Position numbers and translations under genes: made by a program. 64,000 bases of DNA from Pseudarthrobacter sp. W1I19 (GTDB lineage Bacteria; Actinomycetota; Actinomycetes; Actinomycetales; Micrococcaceae), in assembly GCF_030817835.1 (NCBI RefSeq), contig NZ_JAUSZR010000001.1, positions 3,534,001-3,598,000 of the forward strand, in the 5' to 3' direction. The notes beneath the pieces are model-generated. The model was not told where the DNA came from. It saw only the letters and a program-made list of their open reading frames with translations, and ran no database searches. Below, in pieces: positions 1-14,881 of the stretch. Numbering within the stretch: position 1 is the stretch's first letter; each line of letters opens with the position of its first letter.

Positions 1-1016
1 CCCACCACGCCCGAGAAGCCGACGATCAGCATCCGGCGCCGGCCGATGAAACCGAGCAGCCAGATGCCCAGGACGGTCATCAATACAGAGGTCACGCCGA
101 CGCCGATGGTGGCCACGAGCGACGCGCTGACACCGAGACCGCTCTTTTCCAGGATGGTGGGGGCGTAGTAGTTGACGGTGTTGATCCCGGTGGCCTGCTG
201 GACGGTGGCGAGGCCGATGCCGATCCACAGCAGCCGGCGCATCCAGGGGTTGTTGCGGAGGTCGCGCCAGGCGTGGCCGCGCTCCTTTTGGGCCGTCTGT
301 GCAGCCTGGGCAATCTCCTCGAACTCCCGGGCCGCTTCCTCCGGGTTACGGCTCAGGTTGAGCACGCGGCGGCTGTCCTCGAGCCGCCCGCGGATGGCGT
401 ACCAGCGCGGTGACTCGGGCAGCATCAGCATGCCGGCGAGCAGGGCCAGCGCCGGGATCGATGCGATGCCCAGCATGGTGCGCCAGACTTCGGTGTCGTG
501 GATCAGGGCGTCCAGGAGGGCGTTAATGGCGAAGGCCAGCATTTGGCCGGTGACGATCATCAGTTCGTTGATGGTCACCATCCGGCCGCGGAGGTGGGCC
601 GGGGCCATCTCCGCCAGGTACAGGGGGCAGGTGACGGCGGCCGCGCCGACGCCGAGGCCCAGCAGGATCCGGGCGGCAATCATCAAGGAAACGTTGGGTG
701 CGATGGCGCAGCCGATGGCTCCGAGCAGGAACAGCAGGGCGCACACCAGCAGGGAACCGCGGCGGCCGAGCTTGTCAGCCATCCGGCCGCCCGTGAGGGC
801 GCCTGCTGCGGCACCGGGAAACAGCAGCGCGCTCACTACTGTTGCTTCCTCGACGGCGTTCATGTTCAGGGAGTCGTTCATGTACAGCAGCGCGCCGGAG
901 ATAACACCGGTGTCATAGCCAAACAACAGGCCGCCAAGGGTGGAAATGACAGTGAGCCGGGCGAGGTACCCGCGGTGCTGGCCGGGGACGCTTTGGGTCG
1001 GTTTTTGCAACAGCAT
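1..1016 (-). CDS. MFS sugar porter, probable inositol transporter (C-terminus beyond window)
   Basis: Start ATG at 1016; the reading frame stays open to the left edge, giving 338 codons of a ~470-residue family, so the C-terminal third is missing here. The N-terminus has the sugar-porter signature GGLLFGYDTG (about residues 28-37), a DxxGRR-type loop after TM2 and PESPRW before the central loop. This is the sugar porter family (H+ symport of polyols/hexoses at the membrane). It is divergent from the iolR-like gene and iolB, and operator-like sites lie between them, so myo-inositol is the likely substrate (inference). It may be the only intact inositol transporter here, since the second one (5824-6754) is truncated. 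Confidence 0.85.
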   Translation of the reverse strand, partial: MLLQKPTQSVPGQHRGYLARLTVISTLGGLLFGYDTGVISGALLYMNDSLNMNAVEEATVVSALLFPGAAAGALTGGRMADKLGRRGSLLVCALLFLLGAIGCAIAPNVSLMIAARILLGLGVGAAAVTCPLYLAEMAPAHLRGRMVTINELMIVTGQMLAFAINALLDALIHDTEVWRTMLGIASIPALALLAGMLMLPESPRWYAIRGRLEDSRRVLNLSRNPEEAAREFEEIAQAAQTAQKERGHAWRDLRNNPWMRRLLWIGIGLATVQQATGINTVNYYAPTILEKSGLGVSASLVATIGVGVTSVLMTVLGIWLLGFIGRRRMLIVGFSGVV

Positions 1017-2061: not shown

Positions 2062-2955
2062 ATGACCAACTGGGTCTATCCGCTCGGGACCGCTACTGAC
2101 GGAAAGTGGGATGTCTCCATCGGAACGTCCGACTCCTCCCTCGCCCTGGAGGGGTGGGCACATACCGGGCTGAAGGTGGCCACCCTGGCCGCAGGCGCCG
2201 ACGTCGTCCTTCCTGCAGCGCAGGAGGAGCGCATCGTGGTGCCGCTCAATGGATCCTTCACCGTCACGGTGGACGGGACCGGGTACCAGCTGAACGGCCG
2301 TGCGTCAGTATTCAACGGCCCCACGGACGTCCTCTACTCCGGCACCGGCCGTGCCCTGACCATCAGTTCAGCCGACGGCGGCCGGGTGGCCGTCGCGACT
2401 GCACCAGCCAATGCGTCGTACCCCACCCGGCTGGTAACGGCGGCGGAAACTCCGGTAGAGCTGCGGGGGGCGGGCAACTGCTCGCGCCAGGTCCACAACT
2501 TCGGTACACCGGCAGCGCTGGAAGCCGACCGGTTCATCGTGTGCGAGGTCCTCACGCCGGCCGGAAACTGGTCCTCCTATCCCCCGCACAAGCACGACGA
2601 GGAGAAGGACGGAGAGACCCACCTCGAGGAAATCTACTACTTCGAGACGCAGGTGGCCGCCGGTTCGGCAGCACCCGTGGATGCCGATGCAATCGGCTAC
2701 CAGCGCGTCTACGCCTCGGACGAGCGCCCCATCGATGTGTCCGCCGAGGTGCGCACGGGAGACGTGGTCCTGGTTCCGTACGGCTGGCACGGCCCTGCAA
2801 TGGCCGCACCCGGCTACGACTTGTACTACCTGAACGTGATGGCCGGCCCGGGCCCTGTCCGCGAGTGGCTGATCAGCGATGATCCGCACCACGGCTGGGT
2901 GCGGCAGACCTGGGAGACCCAGGACATCGACCCGCGGCTGCCCTTCGGCGGGTAG
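2062..2955 (+). CDS. iolB: 5-deoxy-glucuronate isomerase
   Basis: 297 residues, the usual IolB length. It converts 5-deoxy-D-glucuronate to 2-deoxy-5-keto-D-gluconate, after the IolD ring-opening step. The KduI/IolB cupin signature is clear: YPPHKHDE (about 173-180) and a THLEEIYYFE segment carrying the metal-binding His/Glu, then a second cupin half with YGWHGP. Strong AAGGAG site before the ATG. It is cotranscribed with the GntR regulator and separated from the main iol operon by ~10 kb, including a LacI gene and an MFS/MarR pair. Confidence 0.93.
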   Translation: MTNWVYPLGTATDGKWDVSIGTSDSSLALEGWAHTGLKVATLAAGADVVLPAAQEERIVVPLNGSFTVTVDGTGYQLNGRASVFNGPTDVLYSGTGRALTISSADGGRVAVATAPANASYPTRLVTAAETPVELRGAGNCSRQVHNFGTPAALEADRFIVCEVLTPAGNWSSYPPHKHDEEKDGETHLEEIYYFETQVAAGSAAPVDADAIGYQRVYASDERPIDVSAEVRTGDVVLVPYGWHGPAMAAPGYDLYYLNVMAGPGPVREWLISDDPHHGWVRQTWETQDIDPRLPFGG

Positions 2956-5369: not shown

Positions 5370-5819
5370 ATGGGCATCAAGGACGACGCCGTTGAGGTCC
5401 GCGCGCAGGGTTGGCGCACCCTGGCCGCCCTCCACGGGCTGATCGAAACCGAACTGGAGCGTGCGCTCCAGGCGGAATCGAAGCTGTCCGTGGTTGAGTA
5501 CACGGTCCTGGATGCACTGAGCCGGCAGGACGGCTGGCACATGAGGATGCAGCAGCTTGCGCGTGCATCCGCTTTGAGCCCCAGCGCCACCACCCGGCTG
5601 GTCAACAGGCTGGAGGACCGGGGCCTCCTGACCCGCATCCTGTGCGCCGACGACCGCCGGGGAATCTACACGGAGCTGACTGCCAGTGGCCTGCGCCTGC
5701 TGGAGGACGTCCGGCCCGTGCATGACGCAACCCTTGAGCGCGCCTTGGACGAAGCGCTGGCTATCCCGGAACTGGCGCCCCTGGTGGATGCCCTCCCCCG
5801 GCTCCACGCCCCCGCTTGA
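5370..5819 (+). CDS. MarR-family regulator
   Basis: 149 residues, normal for MarR. The winged HTH spans about 35-105, with the recognition region LARASALSPSATTRLVNRLEDRGLL and the wing DDRRGIYTELT. AAGGAG is placed before the ATG. It is divergent from an AraJ-type MFS exporter with the palindrome at 5236-5295 between them, so local repression of both genes is likely. It ends only 4 bp from the convergent truncated transporter. Confidence 0.9.
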   Translation: MGIKDDAVEVRAQGWRTLAALHGLIETELERALQAESKLSVVEYTVLDALSRQDGWHMRMQQLARASALSPSATTRLVNRLEDRGLLTRILCADDRRGIYTELTASGLRLLEDVRPVHDATLERALDEALAIPELAPLVDALPRLHAPA

Positions 5820-5823
5820 GCCA

Positions 5824-6754
5824 TTAGGCAGGTACTGGTTTCCAGCCCGCAACGTTTTTGAAGTAGTGCTCCAGGTCCTCCAGGCTCTTGTCCTTGGTTT
5901 CAGGCACGTATTTGGCGGCAAAGGCGATGGCGCCCACGCCCAGCACCGCGAACACAAAGAAGGTGTTCGAGATGCCGATGGCTGCCAGGAGCTGCGGGAA
6001 GCCAAAGCCAATAAGGAAGTTGACCATCCACAGCAGGAAGGCCGATGCTCCCATACCCAGGCCGCGGATCTTCAGCGGAAAAATCTCCGAAAGCATCAGC
6101 CACGTGACCGGTGAAATCGCACCCTGCTGGAATGCCAGGAACGTCACCGTCAGCGAAAGGATAACGAAACCCCGGACCGAGCCTTCCGGCAGGATCAGTG
6201 AGAAAAGCCCGATCAGCAGCAGCGCCGTCGTCGTGCCTGCCTGGCCGGTGATCAGCATCCTGCGGCGCCCCACCTTGCCCAGCAGCCAGATGCCCACGAA
6301 GGTGGCGAGCACGGAAATGACGCCGTTGGCGATGTTGGCGGTCAGGGCAGCTTCCCGGCCAAATCCGGACTGCGCCAGGATCTGGGTGCCGTAGTACATG
6401 ATCGAGTTCACGCCGGTGATCTGCTGGATCACGGCCAGGCCGAGGCCCACAAAGAAGATCCGGCGCAGCCACGGAATGCCCAGGTCCTTCCACGAGCCCA
6501 TCTTGGACTTGTAGTCCTCCACGGCCATGGCTTTGACTTCTTCGAATTCGGTCCGCGCGTCGGCCTGGGACCGGATGCGCTGCAGGACGCTGAGGGTTTC
6601 GCCGAAGCTTCCCATTGAGGCGAGCCAGCGGGGGCTTTCGGGCATAAAGTTCATGCCGATCCACAGTGCGATGGCGGGGAGGGTGGCGATCACCAGCATC
6701 CAGCGCCAGATGCCGCCGGCTTCGCCGAAGGTGTTGCCGAGGTAGGCATTGAAG
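5824..6754 (-). pseudogene. 5'-truncated sugar porter (iolT-like) remnant
   Basis: About 310 codons corresponding to the C-terminal two thirds of an MFS sugar porter. It begins at FNAYLGNTFGEAGGIWRWML, which in full-length relatives sits about 170 residues in. The rest is intact to the stop: PESPRWL, QQITGVNSIMYYG, a GRR loop, and PETKDKSLEDLE near the end. It resembles C. glutamicum IolT1 more than the porter at 1-1016. The first six TM helices and the start region are missing because the DNA switches directly into an iolH-type gene near 6754/6755. A short out-of-frame restart upstream (ATG 6840) would not restore the N-terminus. Very likely non-functional. Confidence 0.8.
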
Positions 6755-7117
6755 CTCGGACTCTTCAGCTTTCTCCGGCCGGCCACTGAATTCGGTGTTG
6801 ATAGTGCTGACGCCAAGGTCGACGGTGATCTGGATGGCACGCTTCCAGTAACGCACTGCGGCCTCGCGGGCGTCCTCGTCGGGGCCGGACCAGCGCAGGA
6901 CCGGCAGGACGGACGCGATTTCGATTCCCGCGTCCCGGCAGGCCTTGTTCAGCTGGCCCACCAGTTCATCATCCGCTTTGGGGTGGTTGTAGAAAGGGAT
7001 GAAATCCCGGTGCGGAGTCATCTGCATGTACTTGTAGCCAAGGTCCGCCGCCACCTTCGGGAACTCAAGCAGGCTGTGCGAGTGGTGGAACGGGGTGGGG
7101 TCAAGTGCGATTTTCAC
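6755..7117 (-). pseudogene. 3'-truncated iolH-type sugar phosphate isomerase/epimerase
   Basis: 121 codons from GTG 7117 (GGAG 8 nt upstream), reading KIALDPTPFHHSHSLLEFPK and so on to EFSGRPEKAEESE. This is the N-terminal ~40% of an IolH/TIM-barrel (AP_endonuc_2 fold) protein of ~290 residues. It then runs into the transporter remnant in another frame. Reading on gives a spurious 414-residue frame with no family character after residue ~130. Last gene of the iol operon. The enzyme role of IolH is unsettled even in model organisms; here the barrel is incomplete, so no activity is expected. Confidence 0.8.
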
Positions 7118-7150: not shown

Positions 7151-7213
7151 GAGTTTTTGTCCAGATATGCAGGGCTAAAGGGCCTGAAAGTCTGCATATC
7201 TGGACAAAAGCTC
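7151..7213. repeat. 22-bp inverted repeat, hairpin between iolG and iolH'
   Basis: Arms 7151-7172 and 7192-7213 pair with one mismatch around a 19-nt loop; the core is GTCCAGATATGCAG. It lies between the iolG stop and the iolH' start, inside the operon. The outer A/T runs make it terminator-like in both directions. It could instead be a dispersed palindromic repeat. Confidence 0.6.
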
Positions 7214-7220
7214 CTAGGGG

Positions 7221-8234
7221 CTACTTGTAGAGGTCCGGTTTGGCGGCCAGTTTCACGGCCACCTTTTCGCCGTTCTTCTGCGCCTCCACGCCGGCTTCAC
7301 AGCATGCGGCGGTGGCGTAACCGTCCCAGGCGGTGGGGCCTCCGATTTCTCCGCGGAGTGCCGCGTCCACCCATGACTGGATTTCGACGTCGTAGGCCGC
7401 TCCAAAGCGCTCTTCGAAGCCGGGGGTGACGTTGCCGCCCCAGCGTCCGGCGCTGCGGGTGTAGGGGCCTTGGTCGCCGCCGATGCTGACGATTCCTTCT
7501 TCGAAGGATGCCTGGGTGGCCACTTCGTAGCCGTACTTGGCGTTGACGTAGATTTCGACGTCGGCCAGGACACCCGACTCGGTTTCGAGCAGGACATGCT
7601 GGGGATCGTGCTGGCCGGAGGGGGCGTTCTTGGTGGCCTTGCCCAGGCGGACCTGGACGCTGGTGATCTCCTCGCCGGTGAAGAAGCGGATGGCGTCAAA
7701 CTCGTGGACCACGGAATCGTTGATGAGCATTTCGTTAGTGAAGCCGGCCGGCGTGGTGGGGTTGCGGTGCTGGTGGTGCAGCATCAGCAGTTCGCCCAGT
7801 TCGTGGTCCCGGATGATCTTGCCCAGCGAGGCGTACTCGGCGTCGAAGCGGCGCATAAACCCGACCTGGATGCGCTTGTGGCCCAGCTGCACCTCGGCCT
7901 GGACAATCTTCCAGGAGGATTCGGCGTCGGGGGTGAGTGGCTTTTCGCAGAGGATCGGGATGTCCTTGGCGATGGCCTTGAGCAGGATGTCCTCGTGCAG
8001 GAAGCCGGGGGTGGCGATGAGGACGGCGTTGACGTCGCCGTTGTTGAGTGCTTCCTCGGCGTCGGCGAGGGCCACGGCGCCGGGGATGCCTTCGATGGCG
8101 GCCTGTGCGCGGGCGAGGTCGACGTCGACGACGGCGGCGACTTCGGCTCCGTGGATACGCGTGTGGAGGCGCTGGATGTGGTCGGCGCCCATGCGTCCGG
8201 CACCGATGACGGCTACGCGGAGGGTTTCAGTCAT
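7221..8234 (-). CDS. iolG: Inositol 2-dehydrogenase family oxidoreductase
   Basis: 337 residues, Gfo/Idh/MocA family. It oxidises myo-inositol to scyllo-inosose with NAD+. The Rossmann motif GAGRMGADHIQ is near residue 10, and the catalytic/cofactor EKPLTPD motif (CEKPL) is near 95. The C-terminal half is the usual alpha/beta dimerisation domain. ATG 8234 has GAAGGAGAG just upstream; a longer frame to 8375 would overlap the upstream gene. It sits in the iol operon between the iolE-like gene and the truncated iolH. Confidence 0.88.
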   Translation of the reverse strand: MTETLRVAVIGAGRMGADHIQRLHTRIHGAEVAAVVDVDLARAQAAIEGIPGAVALADAEEALNNGDVNAVLIATPGFLHEDILLKAIAKDIPILCEKPLTPDAESSWKIVQAEVQLGHKRIQVGFMRRFDAEYASLGKIIRDHELGELLMLHHQHRNPTTPAGFTNEMLINDSVVHEFDAIRFFTGEEITSVQVRLGKATKNAPSGQHDPQHVLLETESGVLADVEIYVNAKYGYEVATQASFEEGIVSIGGDQGPYTRSAGRWGGNVTPGFEERFGAAYDVEIQSWVDAALRGEIGGPTAWDGYATAACCEAGVEAQKNGEKVAVKLAAKPDLYK

Positions 8235-8268: not shown

Positions 8269-9180
8269 TCAGCTGACGGCGGTGCGGGAGCCGCAGGACA
8301 GCAGGTAGTTGCGGGTGCGCTTGGCGATGGGCATGGGCACATCGAAGGCGACCGGGTACATGTCCTGCTCCACAATCCCGAAGATGGGGCGGTTCAGCGC
8401 TTCCACGGCTTCGATGACGGCGCGCAGGTCCGGCAGCCCGTTCGGGGGTTCGGTCATCACGCCGGCCAGGTTGGCGGCGGCCCAGGTCATGTTTTCCTCG
8501 TTGACCCGCCTCAGGATGTCCGGGTTGATTTGCTTCAGGTGCAGGTAGCCGATCCGGTCCGGGTAGTTCTTGATGAGATCAAGGCTGGAGGCGCCACAGT
8601 ATTCGGCGTGGCCGGTGTCCAGGCACAGGTTCAGGTACTGCGGGTCCGTGGCTGCCAGGAGGGTTTCGATGTCTTCCTGCGCACCCACGTGCGAATCGGC
8701 ATGGGAGTGGAACTGCTGCTTCAGGCCGAAGTCTTCCAGCAGGGTCTTGCCCAGGCGGTTGTGCCCTGTGAACAGGTCGCTCCAGGCCTTCTCGGTCAAC
8801 TCGCCGCTTTCCACGGCCTCGCCGGTGACGTCGTCGCGCCACATGGCCGGAATCACCACGATGTGCTCGCCGCCCATCGCGGCCGTGAGTTCGGCGACCT
8901 TGCGGGCGGGTTCCCAGGCTGTTTCCCACTGGTCCAGGCCGCGGTGGAAGGCGGTGAAAACGGTGCCGGCGGTGACCTTGAGGTCGCGCTGCTTCAGTTC
9001 TTCGGCCAGCCGGATGGGGTCGTTGGGGAGGTAGCCGTAGGGGCCAAGCTCGATCCACTTGTAGCCGGACTCGGCCACCTCATCGAGGAACCGCTCCCAC
9101 GGTGTCTGCTTGGGGTCATCCGCGAACCAGACACCCCAGGAGTCCGGTGCCGTGCCGATAATCAGTTTGTTCTCAGTCAT
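8269..9180 (-). CDS. iolE: TIM-barrel isomerase/epimerase, probable inosose dehydratase (IolE-like)
   Basis: 303 residues, AP_endonuc_2/xylose-isomerase-like barrel. Visible features are GTAPDSWGVWF at the start, WIELGPYGYLP, the metal-site-like FHSHADSHVG and LCLDTGHAEYCG, and GYLHLKQ. In this operon context the missing step is dehydration of scyllo-inosose to 3D-trihydroxycyclohexanedione, the IolE reaction. The assignment rests on context and fold, since sister iol epimerases (IolI, IolH) share the barrel. ATG 9180 has AAGGAG 5 nt upstream; the GTG two codons earlier would overlap that site. Confidence 0.72.
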   Translation of the reverse strand: MTENKLIIGTAPDSWGVWFADDPKQTPWERFLDEVAESGYKWIELGPYGYLPNDPIRLAEELKQRDLKVTAGTVFTAFHRGLDQWETAWEPARKVAELTAAMGGEHIVVIPAMWRDDVTGEAVESGELTEKAWSDLFTGHNRLGKTLLEDFGLKQQFHSHADSHVGAQEDIETLLAATDPQYLNLCLDTGHAEYCGASSLDLIKNYPDRIGYLHLKQINPDILRRVNEENMTWAAANLAGVMTEPPNGLPDLRAVIEAVEALNRPIFGIVEQDMYPVAFDVPMPIAKRTRNYLLSCGSRTAVS

Positions 9181-9195
9181 TTTCACTCCTTGTGG

Positions 9196-9237
9196 GTTTC
9201 GACAGGCTCAACCACCGGTGGTTGAGCCTGTCGAAAC
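9196..9237. repeat. 42-bp perfect palindrome between iolA and iolE
   Basis: 21-nt arms meet at CACC|GGTG (centre 9216/9217) with no loop; each arm contains TTTCGACAGGCTCAACCACC. Sequences of this TTTCGACA-GCTCAACCAC type recur in intergenic DNA of many actinobacteria (recalled). It is inside the operon, where it could act as a partial terminator or mRNA-stability hairpin. Confidence 0.8.
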
Positions 9238-9249
9238 TGAGGTACCGGG

Positions 9250-10764
9250 TCAGTTGGAGGGGAAGTTGTAGGAGGCGCCTGAGGCGTGGTGGGTTTCGGG
9301 CCAGCGGGACGTGATGACCTTGCCGTGGGTGTAGAAGGAGACGCCTTCGGGTCCGTAGATGTGCTTGTCGCCGAAGAGTGAGGCTTTCCAGCCGCCGAAG
9401 GAGTGGTAGGCCACGGGAACGGGCAGCGGTACGTTGATGCCGATCATTCCCACGGTGACAGACCGCTGGAACGTGCGGGCGTGGGCGCCGGAGGAGGTGA
9501 AGATGGCGGTGCCGTTGCCGTAAGGGTTGGCGTTAATCAGCTTGATGCCGTCTTCGAGGGTGTCGACGCGGACGACGACGAGGACCGGTCCGAAGATTTC
9601 CTCAGTGTAGGCGGTCATTTCGGTCTTCACGTGGTCGATGACGGTGGGGCCCACCCAGAAGCCGTCTTCATGGCCGGGGACCACGAGGTCGCGGCCGTCG
9701 ACGACCATGGCGGCGCCGGCGGCTTCGGCTTCGGTGACGATCCGTACGATGCGTTCCTTGGAGGCCGGGGTGATGACCGGGCCCATCTCGGCGTCGGGGG
9801 CCGTGCCGTTGTTGACCTTCACGGAGAGGGCGCGCTCCTCGACCTTCTTGACGATCAGGTCCGCGGCATCCCCGACCGCGACGGCGACGGAGATGGCCAT
9901 GCAGCGCTCCCCTGCGGAGCCGAACGCGGCGGCGGCGAGGTGGTCGGCGGCGTTGTCCAGGTCGGCGTCGGGCAGGATGATGGCGTGGTTCTTCGCCCCG
10001 CCCAGGGCCTGGACACGTTTGCCGTGCCTGGTGGCGGTTTCGTGGACGTACTGGGCGATCGGGGTGGAGCCGACGAAGGAGATGCCGTCCACGTCCGGGT
10101 GGGTCAGCAGTCCATCCACGGTTTCCTTGTCGCCGTGCAGGACCTGGAACACGCCGTCGGGCAGGCCTGCTTCCTTCCAGAGCTTGGCCAGCAGCATCGA
10201 GGCCGACGGGTCGCGTTCGGAGGGCTTGAGGATGAACGCGTTGCCCGTGGCGATGGCCATCGGGGCCATCCAGAGCGGCACCATCACGGGGAAGTTGAAC
10301 GGGGTGATGCCCGCCACCACGCCCAGGGGTTCGCGGAAGGAGAACACGTCGATGCCGGTGGAGACCTGGTCCGAGTAGTCACCCTTGAGCAGGGTGGGGA
10401 TGCCGCAGGCGTACTCGATGACTTCGAGGCCGCGGCCGATTTCGCCCTTGGCGTCAGAGAGGACCTTGCCGTGCTCGGCCGTGATCAGGGCCGCGAGTTC
10501 TTCGACGTGGGAAGCGACGAGTTCCCGGAATTTGAACAGCACGGCGGTGCGCTTGGCCAGGGAGATGTCGCCCCAGATGTCGGCGGCGGCGCGGGCGGCA
10601 GCAACGGTGACGTCCAGGTCGGCACGGTTGGCTAGGCGAAGCTCACCCGACACCCCGCCCGTGGCCGGGTTGTACACAGGCTGGGTGCGGGTACTGGTAC
10701 CGGCGTTTACGGTGCCATTGATGAAGTGGTTGATAACCATGGTCTCAGTGGTGGTGGCAGTCAT
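9250..10764 (-). CDS. iolA: Methylmalonate-semialdehyde dehydrogenase (CoA-acylating)
   Basis: 504 residues, MmsA/IolA class of the aldehyde dehydrogenase superfamily. It converts malonate semialdehyde to acetyl-CoA and CO2, the last step of inositol breakdown. Landmarks are N157 in TPFNFP, K180 in ILKPSERDP, the FVGSTP nucleotide turn, and catalytic C288 in AGERCMA, where the Arg-Cys-Met context is typical of MmsA. It is downstream of iolD by ~45 bp with an AAGGAAGAG site. Confidence 0.92.
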   Translation of the reverse strand: MTATTTETMVINHFINGTVNAGTSTRTQPVYNPATGGVSGELRLANRADLDVTVAAARAAADIWGDISLAKRTAVLFKFRELVASHVEELAALITAEHGKVLSDAKGEIGRGLEVIEYACGIPTLLKGDYSDQVSTGIDVFSFREPLGVVAGITPFNFPVMVPLWMAPMAIATGNAFILKPSERDPSASMLLAKLWKEAGLPDGVFQVLHGDKETVDGLLTHPDVDGISFVGSTPIAQYVHETATRHGKRVQALGGAKNHAIILPDADLDNAADHLAAAAFGSAGERCMAISVAVAVGDAADLIVKKVEERALSVKVNNGTAPDAEMGPVITPASKERIVRIVTEAEAAGAAMVVDGRDLVVPGHEDGFWVGPTVIDHVKTEMTAYTEEIFGPVLVVVRVDTLEDGIKLINANPYGNGTAIFTSSGAHARTFQRSVTVGMIGINVPLPVPVAYHSFGGWKASLFGDKHIYGPEGVSFYTHGKVITSRWPETHHASGASYNFPSN

Positions 10765-10808
10765 GGAGGACTCTTCCTTGAGTGGTTGAAGGGATCAAGT
10801 GGGGAGGT

Positions 10809-12797
10809 TCAGCCGAGCAGTTTGCGCTGGCGGTTCTTGTGGCCCGTGTAGGTCTGGAAGGCGGCCTTGGTGGAATCCAGTTCGGAAACCTGCGAGACGG
10901 GGACGTCCCACCAGGACTCGGAGGACGGTGCGTCCAGGAGCGGGTCGGATTCGACGTGGATCAGGATCGGGCCGCTGCCCTCGGGGGCTGCCTTGGCATC
11001 GCGGATGGCTTGTTCGAGTTCGGCGATGACCTTCTCGCCCGGTTCGATCCGGACCACCTTGACGCCCAGGGACTGGGCATTCAGGGCCAGGTCAACGGGG
11101 AGCGTTTCGCCGTCATCAAAACTGTGCTGTTCCTCGTCCAGGACCCGGTATTTTGTGCCGAAGCGCTGGGACCCGAGGGATTCGGACAGGGACCCAATGG
11201 AGGCGTAGCCATGGTTCTGGATCAGGACCACAATCAGCTTGATGCGTTCGGCGACGGCGGTGACCAGTTCGGTGTGCATCATCAGGTAGGAGCCATCCCC
11301 CACCATCACGACGACGTCCCGTACCTCCGCAGCGCCAGTCCCGTCAGTGCCGCCGTCCGCCGTCGTACGTGCCGCTTCGGCGAGGGCTGCACGCTTGACG
11401 CCCAGGCCGCCGGGGATTTCGTACCCCATGCAGGAGTATGCGTATTCGACGTGGTAGCCGAACGGGTCCCGGACCCGCCACATCTTGTGCAGGTCCCCTG
11501 GCAGGGACCCGGCGGCGCAGATCACCACGTCGCGGGCGTCCATGGCCCGGTTGGTGGCGCCGATGATCTCATTCTGCGCGGGCAGCGGGGTGTAGCGGGT
11601 GTCGAAGGCTTCGTCCACGGTGCCGTCCCAGCGCTGCTTCTCAGAAGCGATCTTCTGCTCCAGGTCCGCGCCGACACGGTAGCCGCCCAGCGCCTGGTTC
11701 AGCTTGACGAGTGCCTTGCGGGCGTCGGCAACGATCGGCAGCGGGGTGCCGTGCTTGTAGGCGTCGATCGGGGCGACATTGATGTTGATAAACTTCACGT
11801 CCGGGTTCTGGAACGCGGTCCGGGACGCGGTAGTGAAGTCCTCGTAGCGGGTGCCGATGCCAATGATCAAGTCCGCCTCGGCAGCGATGGCATTCGCCGC
11901 CGTCGTGCCCGTGGAACCGATCGCGCCAAGGCTGAACTTGTGGTCCCAAGGCAGGACACCGACGCCGGCCTGGGTGTTGCCCACCGGGATGCCGGTCAGC
12001 TCGACGAACTTCGCCAGTTCCTCGTTGGCGTAGGCATAGAGGACACCGCCGCCGGCGATGATCAGCGGCCGCTTGGCGGCGCGGATGGCAGCGGCGGCGC
12101 GGGCGATGTCGTCGTCGTCAGCCTCGGGGCGGCGGATCCGCCACTCCCGCTCAGCCAGGAACTCCTCCGGCACATCGAAGGCCTCGGCCTGGACGTCCTG
12201 CGGCAGCGAGATGGTCACGGCGCCGGTCTCGGCAGGGTCGGTCAGGACGCGCAGGCCGTGGTGGAATGCCGAGAACAGCTGCTCGGGCCGGTTGACCCGG
12301 TCGAAAAATTTGGACAGCGGCCGGAACGCATCATTGACCGTCAGGTCATAGGCGTAGGGCTGTTCCAGCTGCTGCAGGACCGGGTCCGCCGCGCGGGTCG
12401 CGAACGTGTCGGACGGCAGCAACAGCACCGGAAGCCGGTTCGTCGTGGCCAGCGCGGCGCCGGTCAGCAGGTTCGAGGACCCCGGCCCGATCGAGGTGCT
12501 GACCGCGAAGGTCTGGCGGCGGCGGGTGTGCCGGGCATACCCGACGGCCTGGTGGACCTGCGCCTGCTCGTTCCGGCCCTGGTAGTACGGCATGACCGCC
12601 GGATCCAGCTGCTGGTACTGCTTCAACGCCTGGCCCACCCCGGCCACGTTGCCATGCCCGAAGATGCCGAACATCCCCGGGATCAGACGCTCACGGTACT
12701 CAAGGCCGTTGATGAAATCGACCGTGTACTGCTTTGAAAGGTACTCGACGACGGCCTGGGCCACCGTCATCCTGCGTGTTCCTGATGTGGTTCCCAT
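10809..12797 (-). CDS. iolD: 3D-(3,5/4)-trihydroxycyclohexane-1,2-dione hydrolase
   Basis: 662 residues, ThDP-dependent acetolactate-synthase-like fold (N-terminal PYR, central, C-terminal PP domains). It opens the inositol ring to give 5-deoxy-glucuronate, the IolB substrate. Family marks are the N-terminal GIFGHGNVAGVGQAL with the activating Glu region nearby, and the ThDP/Mg2+ motif GDGSYLM followed by LIQNHGY (Asn ligand), about residues 500-535. It starts 6 bp after the aldolase stop and reads tightly into iolA. Confidence 0.93.
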   Translation of the reverse strand: MGTTSGTRRMTVAQAVVEYLSKQYTVDFINGLEYRERLIPGMFGIFGHGNVAGVGQALKQYQQLDPAVMPYYQGRNEQAQVHQAVGYARHTRRRQTFAVSTSIGPGSSNLLTGAALATTNRLPVLLLPSDTFATRAADPVLQQLEQPYAYDLTVNDAFRPLSKFFDRVNRPEQLFSAFHHGLRVLTDPAETGAVTISLPQDVQAEAFDVPEEFLAEREWRIRRPEADDDDIARAAAAIRAAKRPLIIAGGGVLYAYANEELAKFVELTGIPVGNTQAGVGVLPWDHKFSLGAIGSTGTTAANAIAAEADLIIGIGTRYEDFTTASRTAFQNPDVKFININVAPIDAYKHGTPLPIVADARKALVKLNQALGGYRVGADLEQKIASEKQRWDGTVDEAFDTRYTPLPAQNEIIGATNRAMDARDVVICAAGSLPGDLHKMWRVRDPFGYHVEYAYSCMGYEIPGGLGVKRAALAEAARTTADGGTDGTGAAEVRDVVVMVGDGSYLMMHTELVTAVAERIKLIVVLIQNHGYASIGSLSESLGSQRFGTKYRVLDEEQHSFDDGETLPVDLALNAQSLGVKVVRIEPGEKVIAELEQAIRDAKAAPEGSGPILIHVESDPLLDAPSSESWWDVPVSQVSELDSTKAAFQTYTGHKNRQRKLLG

Positions 12798-12803
12798 GGG
12801 GAG

Positions 12804-13739
12804 CTACTCCGATACTTCTGCGGTGTGGTGAAGGAGGGAAGCGGCGGTGGCGACGGCGCCTGCCACGTCCCCGTCAGCGGGGTACAAAAGCGTCCGGCCC
12901 ACGGTGAGGCCCTGAACCCCGGGCAACGCCAGCGCCGCCTGCCAGCTGGCGAAGACCTCGTCCTGGGTCCCTTCCGGATCGCCTCCCAACAGGACTGTGG
13001 GCATGGTGGTCGCGGCCATGACGCGTTCCATCTCCGCCACGACCGGGAGCTTCATCCAGGTGTAAGCGCTGGTGGAGCCCAGTCCTTCGGCAATGGCGAT
13101 CGACTTGATCACGGCATTCGTGGAGAGGTCGTTGCGGACCCGGCCGTTCTCCCGGACCGACAGGAAGGGCTCCACCATGGCGATCAGTTTTCGCTCGGCG
13201 AGGGAGTCGATGGCCTTGGCGGTGGCCTCCAGGGTGGCCACAGTGTCCGGGTCGCCCAGGCAGATGCGGGTCAGCATCTTGCCGCCGTCCGCGCCCAAGG
13301 CCGCCAAAGCTGCGGCGGTGTGGCCGGTGAAACGGTCATCGAGCTCATTGACCAGCCCGGACAACCCGCCCCGGTTCATCGAACCAAACACCAGCTTGCC
13401 ATCCAAGGCACCCAGCAACAGCAGGTCGTCCATGATGTCCGGGGACGCCAGGACCCCGTCCACCGCAGGGTTCGCCAGCGCGATCTGCAGCCGGTCCAGG
13501 AGTTGGCGGCGGTCCGCCATCGCCACCGGGTCGCTGCCTACAGCCAGGGCGCCGCGGGCGGGGTGGTCTGCGGCGACAATGAAGTTCTGCCGGCCGGATT
13601 TCAGTTCGGGGTGGCGTCGGCGGGATTTAGCGGCACGGGCCACGGCGTCGGGGTCTTCGAGCCGGATGGTGCTCAAGTGCGCATACCGGCGCGGATCGTC
13701 GTTGAGCGCCTGATTGGCGGCGATCGGGGTGAGTGTCAC
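12804..13739 (-). CDS. Cgl0159-type (beta/alpha)8 aldolase, probable DKGP aldolase
   Basis: 311 residues, related to class I aldolases of the DeoC/FbaB type. KLIAMVEPF and YTWMKLP carry candidate active-site Lys/Glu positions. It sits directly after iolC with a GTGA overlap (start GTG 13739 over the iolC stop) and an AAGGAG site. In many actinobacteria this family is in iol operons or fused to IolC. The pathway needs cleavage of 2-deoxy-5-keto-gluconate-6-phosphate to DHAP and malonate semialdehyde, and no iolJ-like class II aldolase is present in the window. That role is therefore inferred here. Confidence 0.75.
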   Translation of the reverse strand: MTLTPIAANQALNDDPRRYAHLSTIRLEDPDAVARAAKSRRRHPELKSGRQNFIVAADHPARGALAVGSDPVAMADRRQLLDRLQIALANPAVDGVLASPDIMDDLLLLGALDGKLVFGSMNRGGLSGLVNELDDRFTGHTAAALAALGADGGKMLTRICLGDPDTVATLEATAKAIDSLAERKLIAMVEPFLSVRENGRVRNDLSTNAVIKSIAIAEGLGSTSAYTWMKLPVVAEMERVMAATTMPTVLLGGDPEGTQDEVFASWQAALALPGVQGLTVGRTLLYPADGDVAGAVATAASLLHHTAEVSE

Positions 13740-14776
13740 AGTGCTGCTCCTTCGGTGGCAAGCTGCACACTGGGATCAGCAACAGCGGCGCCAGGAACAG
13801 TGCCTGGCACAAGGCGGCCGCGTTCGGCCAGCAGCGAGGTGACTTCGTCCGGCGTCGGCATCGCGTCGGCGCAGGACAAACGGGAGGCGACGATCGCGCC
13901 CGCGGCATTGGCGTAGTCCAGGACCTGGGCCAGCGTCCAGCCCGAGAGCAGCCCGTGGCAGAAGGCCCCGCCAAAGGAATCCCCGGCACCCAGTCCGTTG
14001 ACAGTTTCCACGGGGACCGGGGCAGAGACCACACGCTCGGTGCGGGTCTTGGCCATCACACCCTCAGGTCCAAGCTTGACCACGGCGATCTCCACACCGG
14101 CTGCCAGCAAGCGGTCCGCCTGCTCATCCGGCGTGCCTTCCCCCACTGCGACGGCGCATTCCTTGTCATTGCCGATGGCGACAGTCACGTGCGGGAGGAT
14201 CTTGGCAACCTCTGCCCGGGCTTCCTCTTCCGAAGCCCAGAACATGGGCCGGTAATCCAGGTCCAGGATAGTGAACTGCCCCTCGGCGAGACCGGTGCGG
14301 GGCCGCGCCTGGTGGGCGGCGGCGTGCGCGCTGCGACTGGGCTCCTGGCACAGGCCCGTCACCGTAGACCAGAAGATGCCGGCCTCCCGGATCGCGTCCA
14401 GGTCCAGCTCCTCAACCTTGATCTGCAGGTCAGGTGCGGTGGGGAACCGGCCGTAGAAGTACAGTGGGAACTCGTCCGTCGCCGGCTTGATTGCGCAGAA
14501 AGTAACCGCCGTCGGATACTCCTTGACAGGGGAAACGAAGGAGTCATCGACGTTGAACTTGTGCAGTTCGCGGTGCAGGTAGTTGCCGAACGCGTCCTCG
14601 CCCGTGCGGGTGATAACCCCGGTCCGGCGCCCGTGGCGGGCAGCGGCGACGGCAACATTGGACGGGGAACCACCAAGGTATTTCCCGAAGGACGTCACGT
14701 CCTCCAGGTCTACCCCGATGTCGTTCGGGTAAATATCAACGCTGATGCGCCCGATGGTGAGAAGCTCGTGGGTCAC
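13736..14776 (-). CDS. iolC: 5-dehydro-2-deoxygluconokinase
   Basis: 346 residues, PfkB/ribokinase family; phosphorylates 2-deoxy-5-keto-gluconate. The N-terminal ELLTIGRISVDIYP with the GG-motif (YLGGSPSNVAVAAARHG) and C-terminal anion hole/catalytic NGLGAGDSFGGAF (D near 290) are all present. GTG 14776 matches where the family begins; the frame remains open upstream to 14863, but those 29 codons are unlike the family. First gene of the operon. The -35 box TTGACA (14888-14893, minus strand) is overlapped by an operator motif shared with the iolR promoter. Confidence 0.88.
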   Translation of the reverse strand: MTHELLTIGRISVDIYPNDIGVDLEDVTSFGKYLGGSPSNVAVAAARHGRRTGVITRTGEDAFGNYLHRELHKFNVDDSFVSPVKEYPTAVTFCAIKPATDEFPLYFYGRFPTAPDLQIKVEELDLDAIREAGIFWSTVTGLCQEPSRSAHAAAHQARPRTGLAEGQFTILDLDYRPMFWASEEEARAEVAKILPHVTVAIGNDKECAVAVGEGTPDEQADRLLAAGVEIAVVKLGPEGVMAKTRTERVVSAPVPVETVNGLGAGDSFGGAFCHGLLSGWTLAQVLDYANAAGAIVASRLSCADAMPTPDEVTSLLAERGRLVPGTVPGAAVADPSVQLATEGAAL

Positions 14777-14881
14777 GATGATCGTGGACCTTTCTGATCT
14801 GAAAACTGCGGACCCCTGAACTGCTGGCTTCGGTCCGGATGGCGTGGTGCCGGCCACAGGCACTACTCTGCCCTAGATCTC

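Follow-up and report, generated by a model that had tools for sequence, protein, structure and literature searches.

The window, i.e. the whole 64,000-nucleotide stretch of Pseudarthrobacter sp. W1I19 DNA that was analysed, carries an iol gene cluster (Table 1) in which a truncated iolH gene is followed directly, on the minus strand, by a truncated gene for an IolT-type sugar porter. The products of iolB, iolD, iolC (N-terminal domain model) and iolA (methylmalonate-semialdehyde dehydrogenase) scored over their NCBIfam cut-offs, and iolE and iolG were named by their best NCBIfam match, with scores below the curated cut-off. The second IolT-type transporter, which lies 5 kb away from the junction, is intact and 49% identical to the IolT protein of strain OV608. 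Between iolD and iolC, the gene for a 311-amino-acid protein (12804-13739, minus strand) matched no NCBIfam model at E 1e-10; judging by its place, we would guess that it may encode the aldolase of the pathway.

Table 1. Features of the iol cluster and of the iolH-iolT junction in the window.
Feature	Position	Strand	Basis or remark
Second IolT-type transporter, running over the edge of the window	1..1016	-	Complete (471 aa) when read beyond the window
iolB, intact	2062..2955	+	NCBIfam
3' remnant of iolT (MFS sugar porter), from codon 166 to the stop	5824..6753	-	Alignment, Pfam
Putative deletion join, one shared base (C)	6754	-	Intact pairs are about 1.0 kb longer
iolH 5' remnant, GTG start, 121 codons of about 291	6755..7117	-	Direct reading, alignment, Pfam
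Out-of-frame chimeric reading frame, 405 aa	5900..7117	-	Reading frame and PF01261 match
iolG-type dehydrogenase, intact, 337 aa, directly upstream of iolH	7221..8234	-	NCBIfam best match
iolE, iolA, iolD, unnamed 311-aa protein, iolC, all open	8269..14863	-	Frames, NCBIfam

Read directly from the window, positions 7117-6755 (minus strand) translate as an IolH-type protein (VKIALDPTPF...GRPEKAEESE), and positions 6753-5824 (minus strand) as a sugar porter (FNAYLGNTFGEAGG...GWKPVPA*) in a frame that differs from that of the iolH remnant, the sense codons occupying 6753-5827 and the stop codon ending at 5824. In agreement with the initial annotation, which had described an IolH-type N-terminus running to about 6755 and passing without a gap, at FNAYLG, into a sugar porter read in another frame, the first piece comprises 121 codons and a single base (C, 6754) stands between it and the second one. 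In protein alignments to OV608 (locus L039), the window matched residues 1-121 of IolH (96% identity) and residues 166-470 of IolT (97%), with a single base separating both alignments and the first 165 codons of iolT absent from the remnant. The frame opened at the iolH start encodes 121 IolH residues followed by about 284 residues derived from iolT in the wrong frame; the only Pfam match of this chimera is the cut PF01261 domain (residues 21-124), and its product is presumably non-functional.

The domain profiles are cut accordingly. The PF01261 TIM barrel of the iolH remnant ends after profile position 96 of 249, with a score of 58.2 bits that is above the cut-off (31.1) and compares to 154.1 bits for an intact relative. 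The iolT remnant matches PF00083 from profile position 166 on, and its score against the TIGR00879 sugar porter model (207.6 bits) falls below the cut-off of 237.8 bits, versus 344.1 bits for the intact OV608 IolT and 363.5 bits for the second transporter of the window. The name IolH comes from the source labels of the protein matches, and PF01261 and the place beside iolG agree with it; no NCBIfam equivalog for IolH exceeded its cut-off. Each piece is 94-98% identical to its orthologues in strains 9AX and OV608 (one similarity search, best 80 of 324 matches), and these identities, together with flanks that are collinear with those of 9AX, exclude a chance likeness.

In these close relatives the two genes form an intact pair, which lies in the same place and order in OV608 and 9AX (locus L038). 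Both genes are full-length in OV608 (iolH, 291 aa; iolT, 471 aa), with a 4-bp overlap (ATGA). Both flanks are the same in 9AX as in the window, with iolD, iolA, iolE and iolG on one side, and regulators, an MFS gene, iolB and the second transporter on the other. The regulators of that other flank we take, from their sequences, to be of the MarR type (before the MFS gene), the LacI type (between the MFS gene and iolB) and the GntR type (between iolB and the second transporter), and the MFS gene is likewise our assignment; for the MarR-type gene, NCBIfam gave no match at E 1e-10. Compared with the OV608 and 9AX pairs, about 1.0 kb across the overlap of iolH and iolT is missing from the window, as expected from the out-of-frame deletion initially proposed for this locus, and the intact iolH-iolT pair to be looked for in close relatives is indeed present there, in a collinear setting.

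The absent stretch, measured at the join, is 1,003 bp long in OV608 and 994 bp long in 9AX, and ranges from 991 to 1033 bp, each length being 1 mod 3, in 37 of the 38 relatives measured in this way (the exception, L085, gave 1074 bp with a coarse alignment). Since the 37 lengths are all 1 mod 3, any of those relatives, taken as the ancestor, would give an out-of-frame join. In 69 loci, the two pieces stand in order and 990-1139 bp apart, 65 of these loci having a gap of 980-1060 bp (duplicate records of one genome being included in the count); the pieces occur in another order in six distant loci, and the iolT piece occurs alone in 34. In 150 genus genomes, the matches to the query break near its position 547 from either side, and no match other than the window's own crossed that position among the matches listed. 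The extent of the loss had been put at the rest of iolH, any spacer and about 170 codons of the transporter, more than 1 kb in all. The rest of iolH and the N-terminal codons of the transporter are indeed gone, the latter numbering 165, whereas there was no spacer to lose, because iolH and iolT overlap in OV608, and the size is 1,003 bp by OV608 or 994 bp by 9AX.

We rejected a translocation of the lost piece, which was not found elsewhere in the genome. In the strain's own genome, neither residues 122-291 of IolH nor residues 1-139 of IolT had a close match (the best one for the latter was the second transporter, 49%), and no close IolH was found besides the remnant, the next match having an E value of 7.4e-5 and 20% identity.

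Among the genomes searched, the junction is private to this one. A 37-mer of the junction, sought with up to three mismatches, occurred in one of the 206 genus genomes, i.e. the window's own, and no fused relative was found among the best 120 of 2,445 proteins with the chimeric frame, or among the best 120 of 3,362 proteins with the transporter frame (the listed proteins stand for clusters at 90% identity, and the search for fused relatives is not exhaustive). Relatives with the same fused arrangement, which had been named as one observation that would speak against a deletion scar, did not turn up among the other 205 genus genomes, and an arrangement common to relatives was rejected on this ground and from the two protein lists. 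Functional gene fusions are conserved in relatives and read in a single frame, and the window shows neither feature. We thus see hardly any room for a fusion that works through a programmed frameshift, or for a working C-terminal part of the transporter: it would fit an iolT remnant that is free of stops and still conserved, and a wrong frame that stays open for 284 codons, but the arrangement is confined to that single genome with no fused protein in either search, the porter lacks its first 165 residues, conservation is explained by youth alone, and the window holds so many long overlapping frames that frames open by chance are common in its DNA.

Regarding the age of the event, the remnants show no relaxed selection. 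First, the median dN/dS values between the window and 25 relatives (iolT piece, 0.050; iolH piece, 0.048) are not raised over those among the relatives themselves (0.057 and 0.059, respectively), the medians being little affected by one relative, L048, whose frameshifted iolH led to a misalignment of the iolH piece. Second, the window has one private amino-acid change per piece. Third, parsimony with seven outgroup loci assigned 35 silent and 5 replacement changes to the window branch since 9AX (1 replacement remained unassigned), and 50 silent and 10 replacement changes to the branch of 9AX itself. Knowing that a fully neutral window branch would be expected to give about 106 replacements, at most 10-11% of that branch can have been neutral. 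From this lack of relaxed selection, the deletion appears young on the scale of the split from 9AX, an estimate that does not tell a natural event from one in culture. These values, with the absence of the junction from the other genomes, bear out the earlier view that both halves are well conserved (96% and 97% versus OV608) and that the junction is recent. Low dN/dS values could also result from an old deletion whose remnants selection has retained for another role; this is nevertheless a very remote prospect, as 9AX (91% DNA identity over the iolT piece) and OV608, the nearest relatives, are intact, no other genome of the 206 has the scar, and selection before a recent event yields the same pattern at less cost.

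At the join, the two ends have one base in common. Within 60 bp of both breakpoints, exact words in common reach at most 6 bp (OV608) and 7 bp (9AX), and neither of these words lies at the join; in a control of 291 random piece pairs of the OV608 locus, words of at least 6 bp were shared in 289 pairs and words of at least 7 bp in 210. The microhomology to be looked for around 6750-6760 thus comes down to a single base, the longer words being within chance. One shared base makes recombination between repeats, or an assembly collapse on a repeat, unlikely, and the former finds no support as a route since the breakpoints have no repeat beyond the chance level. The single shared base and the presence of a Ku gene in the strain's own genome point to end joining without repeats, possibly with the help of Ku, as the likely mechanism.

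The assembly collapse that had been offered as the alternative to a recent junction is unlikely, and a collapse on a repeat is rejected, the breakpoints being without a repeat. More generally, an assembly or consensus error, by which about 1 kb would have been dropped from DNA that is intact in the strain, is improbable. It would agree with both pieces being as conserved as in relatives, and a single assembly lies behind the window; nevertheless, the genome was assembled into a single contig (100% completeness, 0.18% contamination), the iol genes around the junction have open frames, and a collapse needs a long repeat, where the breakpoints offer 6-7 bp words within chance and 1 bp at the join.

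Together, these data lead us to regard it as very likely that one deletion event, recent and about 1.0 kb in size, across the overlapping iolH and iolT genes, with ends joined at one shared base, gave rise to the present arrangement. Such a deletion would have taken roughly the last 170 codons of iolH along with the first 165 codons of iolT, the ancestral length being estimated from relatives and the evidence coming from one assembly of the species. Of this account, the data show the ends, the size relative to relatives, the frameshift, the lack of a close copy of the lost parts elsewhere in the genome and the youth. Ribosomes starting at iolH would read about 284 codons in the wrong frame, and the transporter would be left without its N-terminal third; we infer that IolH and this IolT are both non-functional. 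The mechanism of the deletion is ordinary gene decay. Neither remnant should be annotated as a functional IolH or IolT, and, pending a test, inositol uptake by the strain should be ascribed to the second transporter.

On this reading, the loss would be tolerated because iolH is dispensable, a property carried over from other organisms, and because a second IolT-type transporter remains beside the cluster. In a study of Corynebacterium glutamicum, mutants lacking iolT1 or iolT2 alone grew comparably on myo-inositol, and the iolT1 iolT2 double mutant did not grow on it (PMC9603128). Similarly to the window strain, C. glutamicum thus has two inositol transporters, the single loss of which is tolerated on myo-inositol, but this redundancy was demonstrated with mutants in C. 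glutamicum and is only presumed for the window strain (PMC9603128). In Salmonella, the iolD2-iolH region is termed not essential for myo-inositol degradation in vitro, and iolH is described as uncharacterised (PMC10783015), and a large survey places transporters outside the core genes and notes clusters without iolH (PMC9430895). Given these sources on C. glutamicum, Salmonella and the survey, the second transporter and the intact iol genes, the strain would be expected by analogy to use myo-inositol still.

We also looked at other losses of iolH in a set of related loci drawn by similarity to iolT, which is not a census: 103 of the 111 loci given were above 75% identity (L083, L085-L089, L091 and L092, at 75% or less, were left out), and 66 were distinct after duplicate removal, the window not being counted. 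A full-length iolH lies just upstream of iolT, with no stop inside the match, in 52 of the 66 loci, and 14 are without it. In nine loci, iolG is upstream and iolT open, and iolH is gone or reduced to a scar: a recognisable iolH piece is kept in seven of them (L033, L037, L059, L069, L075, L081 and L082), and none in the other two (L077 and L150). No full-length iolH was found elsewhere in any of these nine genomes. In four of the 14 loci (L074/L152, L076, L078 and L154), iolT is away from iolG, and a Cryobacterium genome of this out-of-cluster group has a full-length iolH elsewhere. In L048 (4640-5500, Arthrobacter nitrophenolicus SJCon), iolH is broken by one-base gaps relative to OV608, which may be decay or sequencing error.

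In the slot that the remnant occupies in the window, iolH is destroyed, leaving a scar, in Pseudarthrobacter Fe7 (L059), C4D7 (L069), Arthrobacter 135MFCol5.1 (L082), P. enclensis CC222 (L075), G017/G011 (L033/L037) and Paenarthrobacter DKR-5 (L081). In these seven relatives iolT is open from its N-terminal region on, whereas its first third is gone in the window; the iolT match starts at residue 17 or earlier in all 66 loci, so that a deletion extending into iolT, with loss of its first 165 codons, is particular to the window within this set. In L059 (5488-6945), L069 and L082, the iolH start and an inner iolH piece (HASHGLR-like) are fused in frame, in contrast to the window, to the iolT N-terminus; judged by eye, the fusion point to iolT is a shared PGN motif. 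These fusions keep the iolT domain whole (checked with Pfam on L059 only), and the transporter seems to be started there from the iolH start codon and leader. In L075, a double deletion inside iolH (around 5391-5506) leaves the iolH end and the iolT start in place; by eye, its first join is common with L059, L069 and L082 and its second join is different, so that L075 looks like an intermediate stage. The iolT gene itself is interrupted by a stop codon (alignment column 47, counted from 0) in L049 (Arthrobacter liuii CGMCC 1.12778; identical to L020). This iolT is otherwise 93% identical and lies beside an intact iolH, and a second iolT-type gene is found further along the locus, so that the loss of the window's iolT has a parallel.

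On a tree of the iolT piece (69 sequences, 54 labelled intact and 15 lost, including the window, L048 with its possible sequencing errors and the four loci where iolT is not behind iolG), 13 label changes were counted, 11 of them forced by well-supported branches, versus 13.8 on average with shuffled labels; the lost label is thus not clustered. We do not read this as 13 separate origins of iolH loss, the tree being a gene tree and not a species tree. Although L059, L069, L082 and L075 do not group on it, they probably share the origin of their common inner junction, and about six distinct scar forms, that of the window included, can be told apart by eye. We propose, with evenly balanced confidence, that iolH has been shed repeatedly through different deletions, that in one group iolT took over the iolH start, and that the window is the newest case, in which the deletion overshot into iolT. 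If true, iolH would be neutral or mildly harmful in Arthrobacter-type iol clusters, iolH-null strains beside intact species would provide a natural experiment on the role of IolH, and a group that loses iolH yet keeps the neighbouring pathway genes would offer a direct route to when iolH is needed. This pattern was absent from the titles and abstract openings of the papers listed for iolH, the Arthrobacter iol genes and iol pseudogenes, and we make no claim that it is unreported.

Finally, the iolG-iolH spacer contains a long near-perfect palindrome (7151-7214; fold -37.8 kcal/mol, z -7.4). We rejected it as the cause of the deletion, since some 400 bp separate it from the join and, by eye, intact OV608 has a similar element at the same place. 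It belongs to a dispersed family in which 18-base arms (TTTTGTCCAGATATGCAG and its complement) flank a variable middle of about 19 bases, the element being mostly 55 bases long (47-57 in 11 listed copies of the strain's own genome). With up to three mismatches, the arm occurs 33 times in that genome, versus 0 for the reversed-pattern control. None of the Rfam matches reached the gathering score. In full length and with exact arms, the element is present in 9 of 204 genus genomes, including the strain's own, with up to 15 copies per genome, and may be of a REP-like or terminator-like kind.
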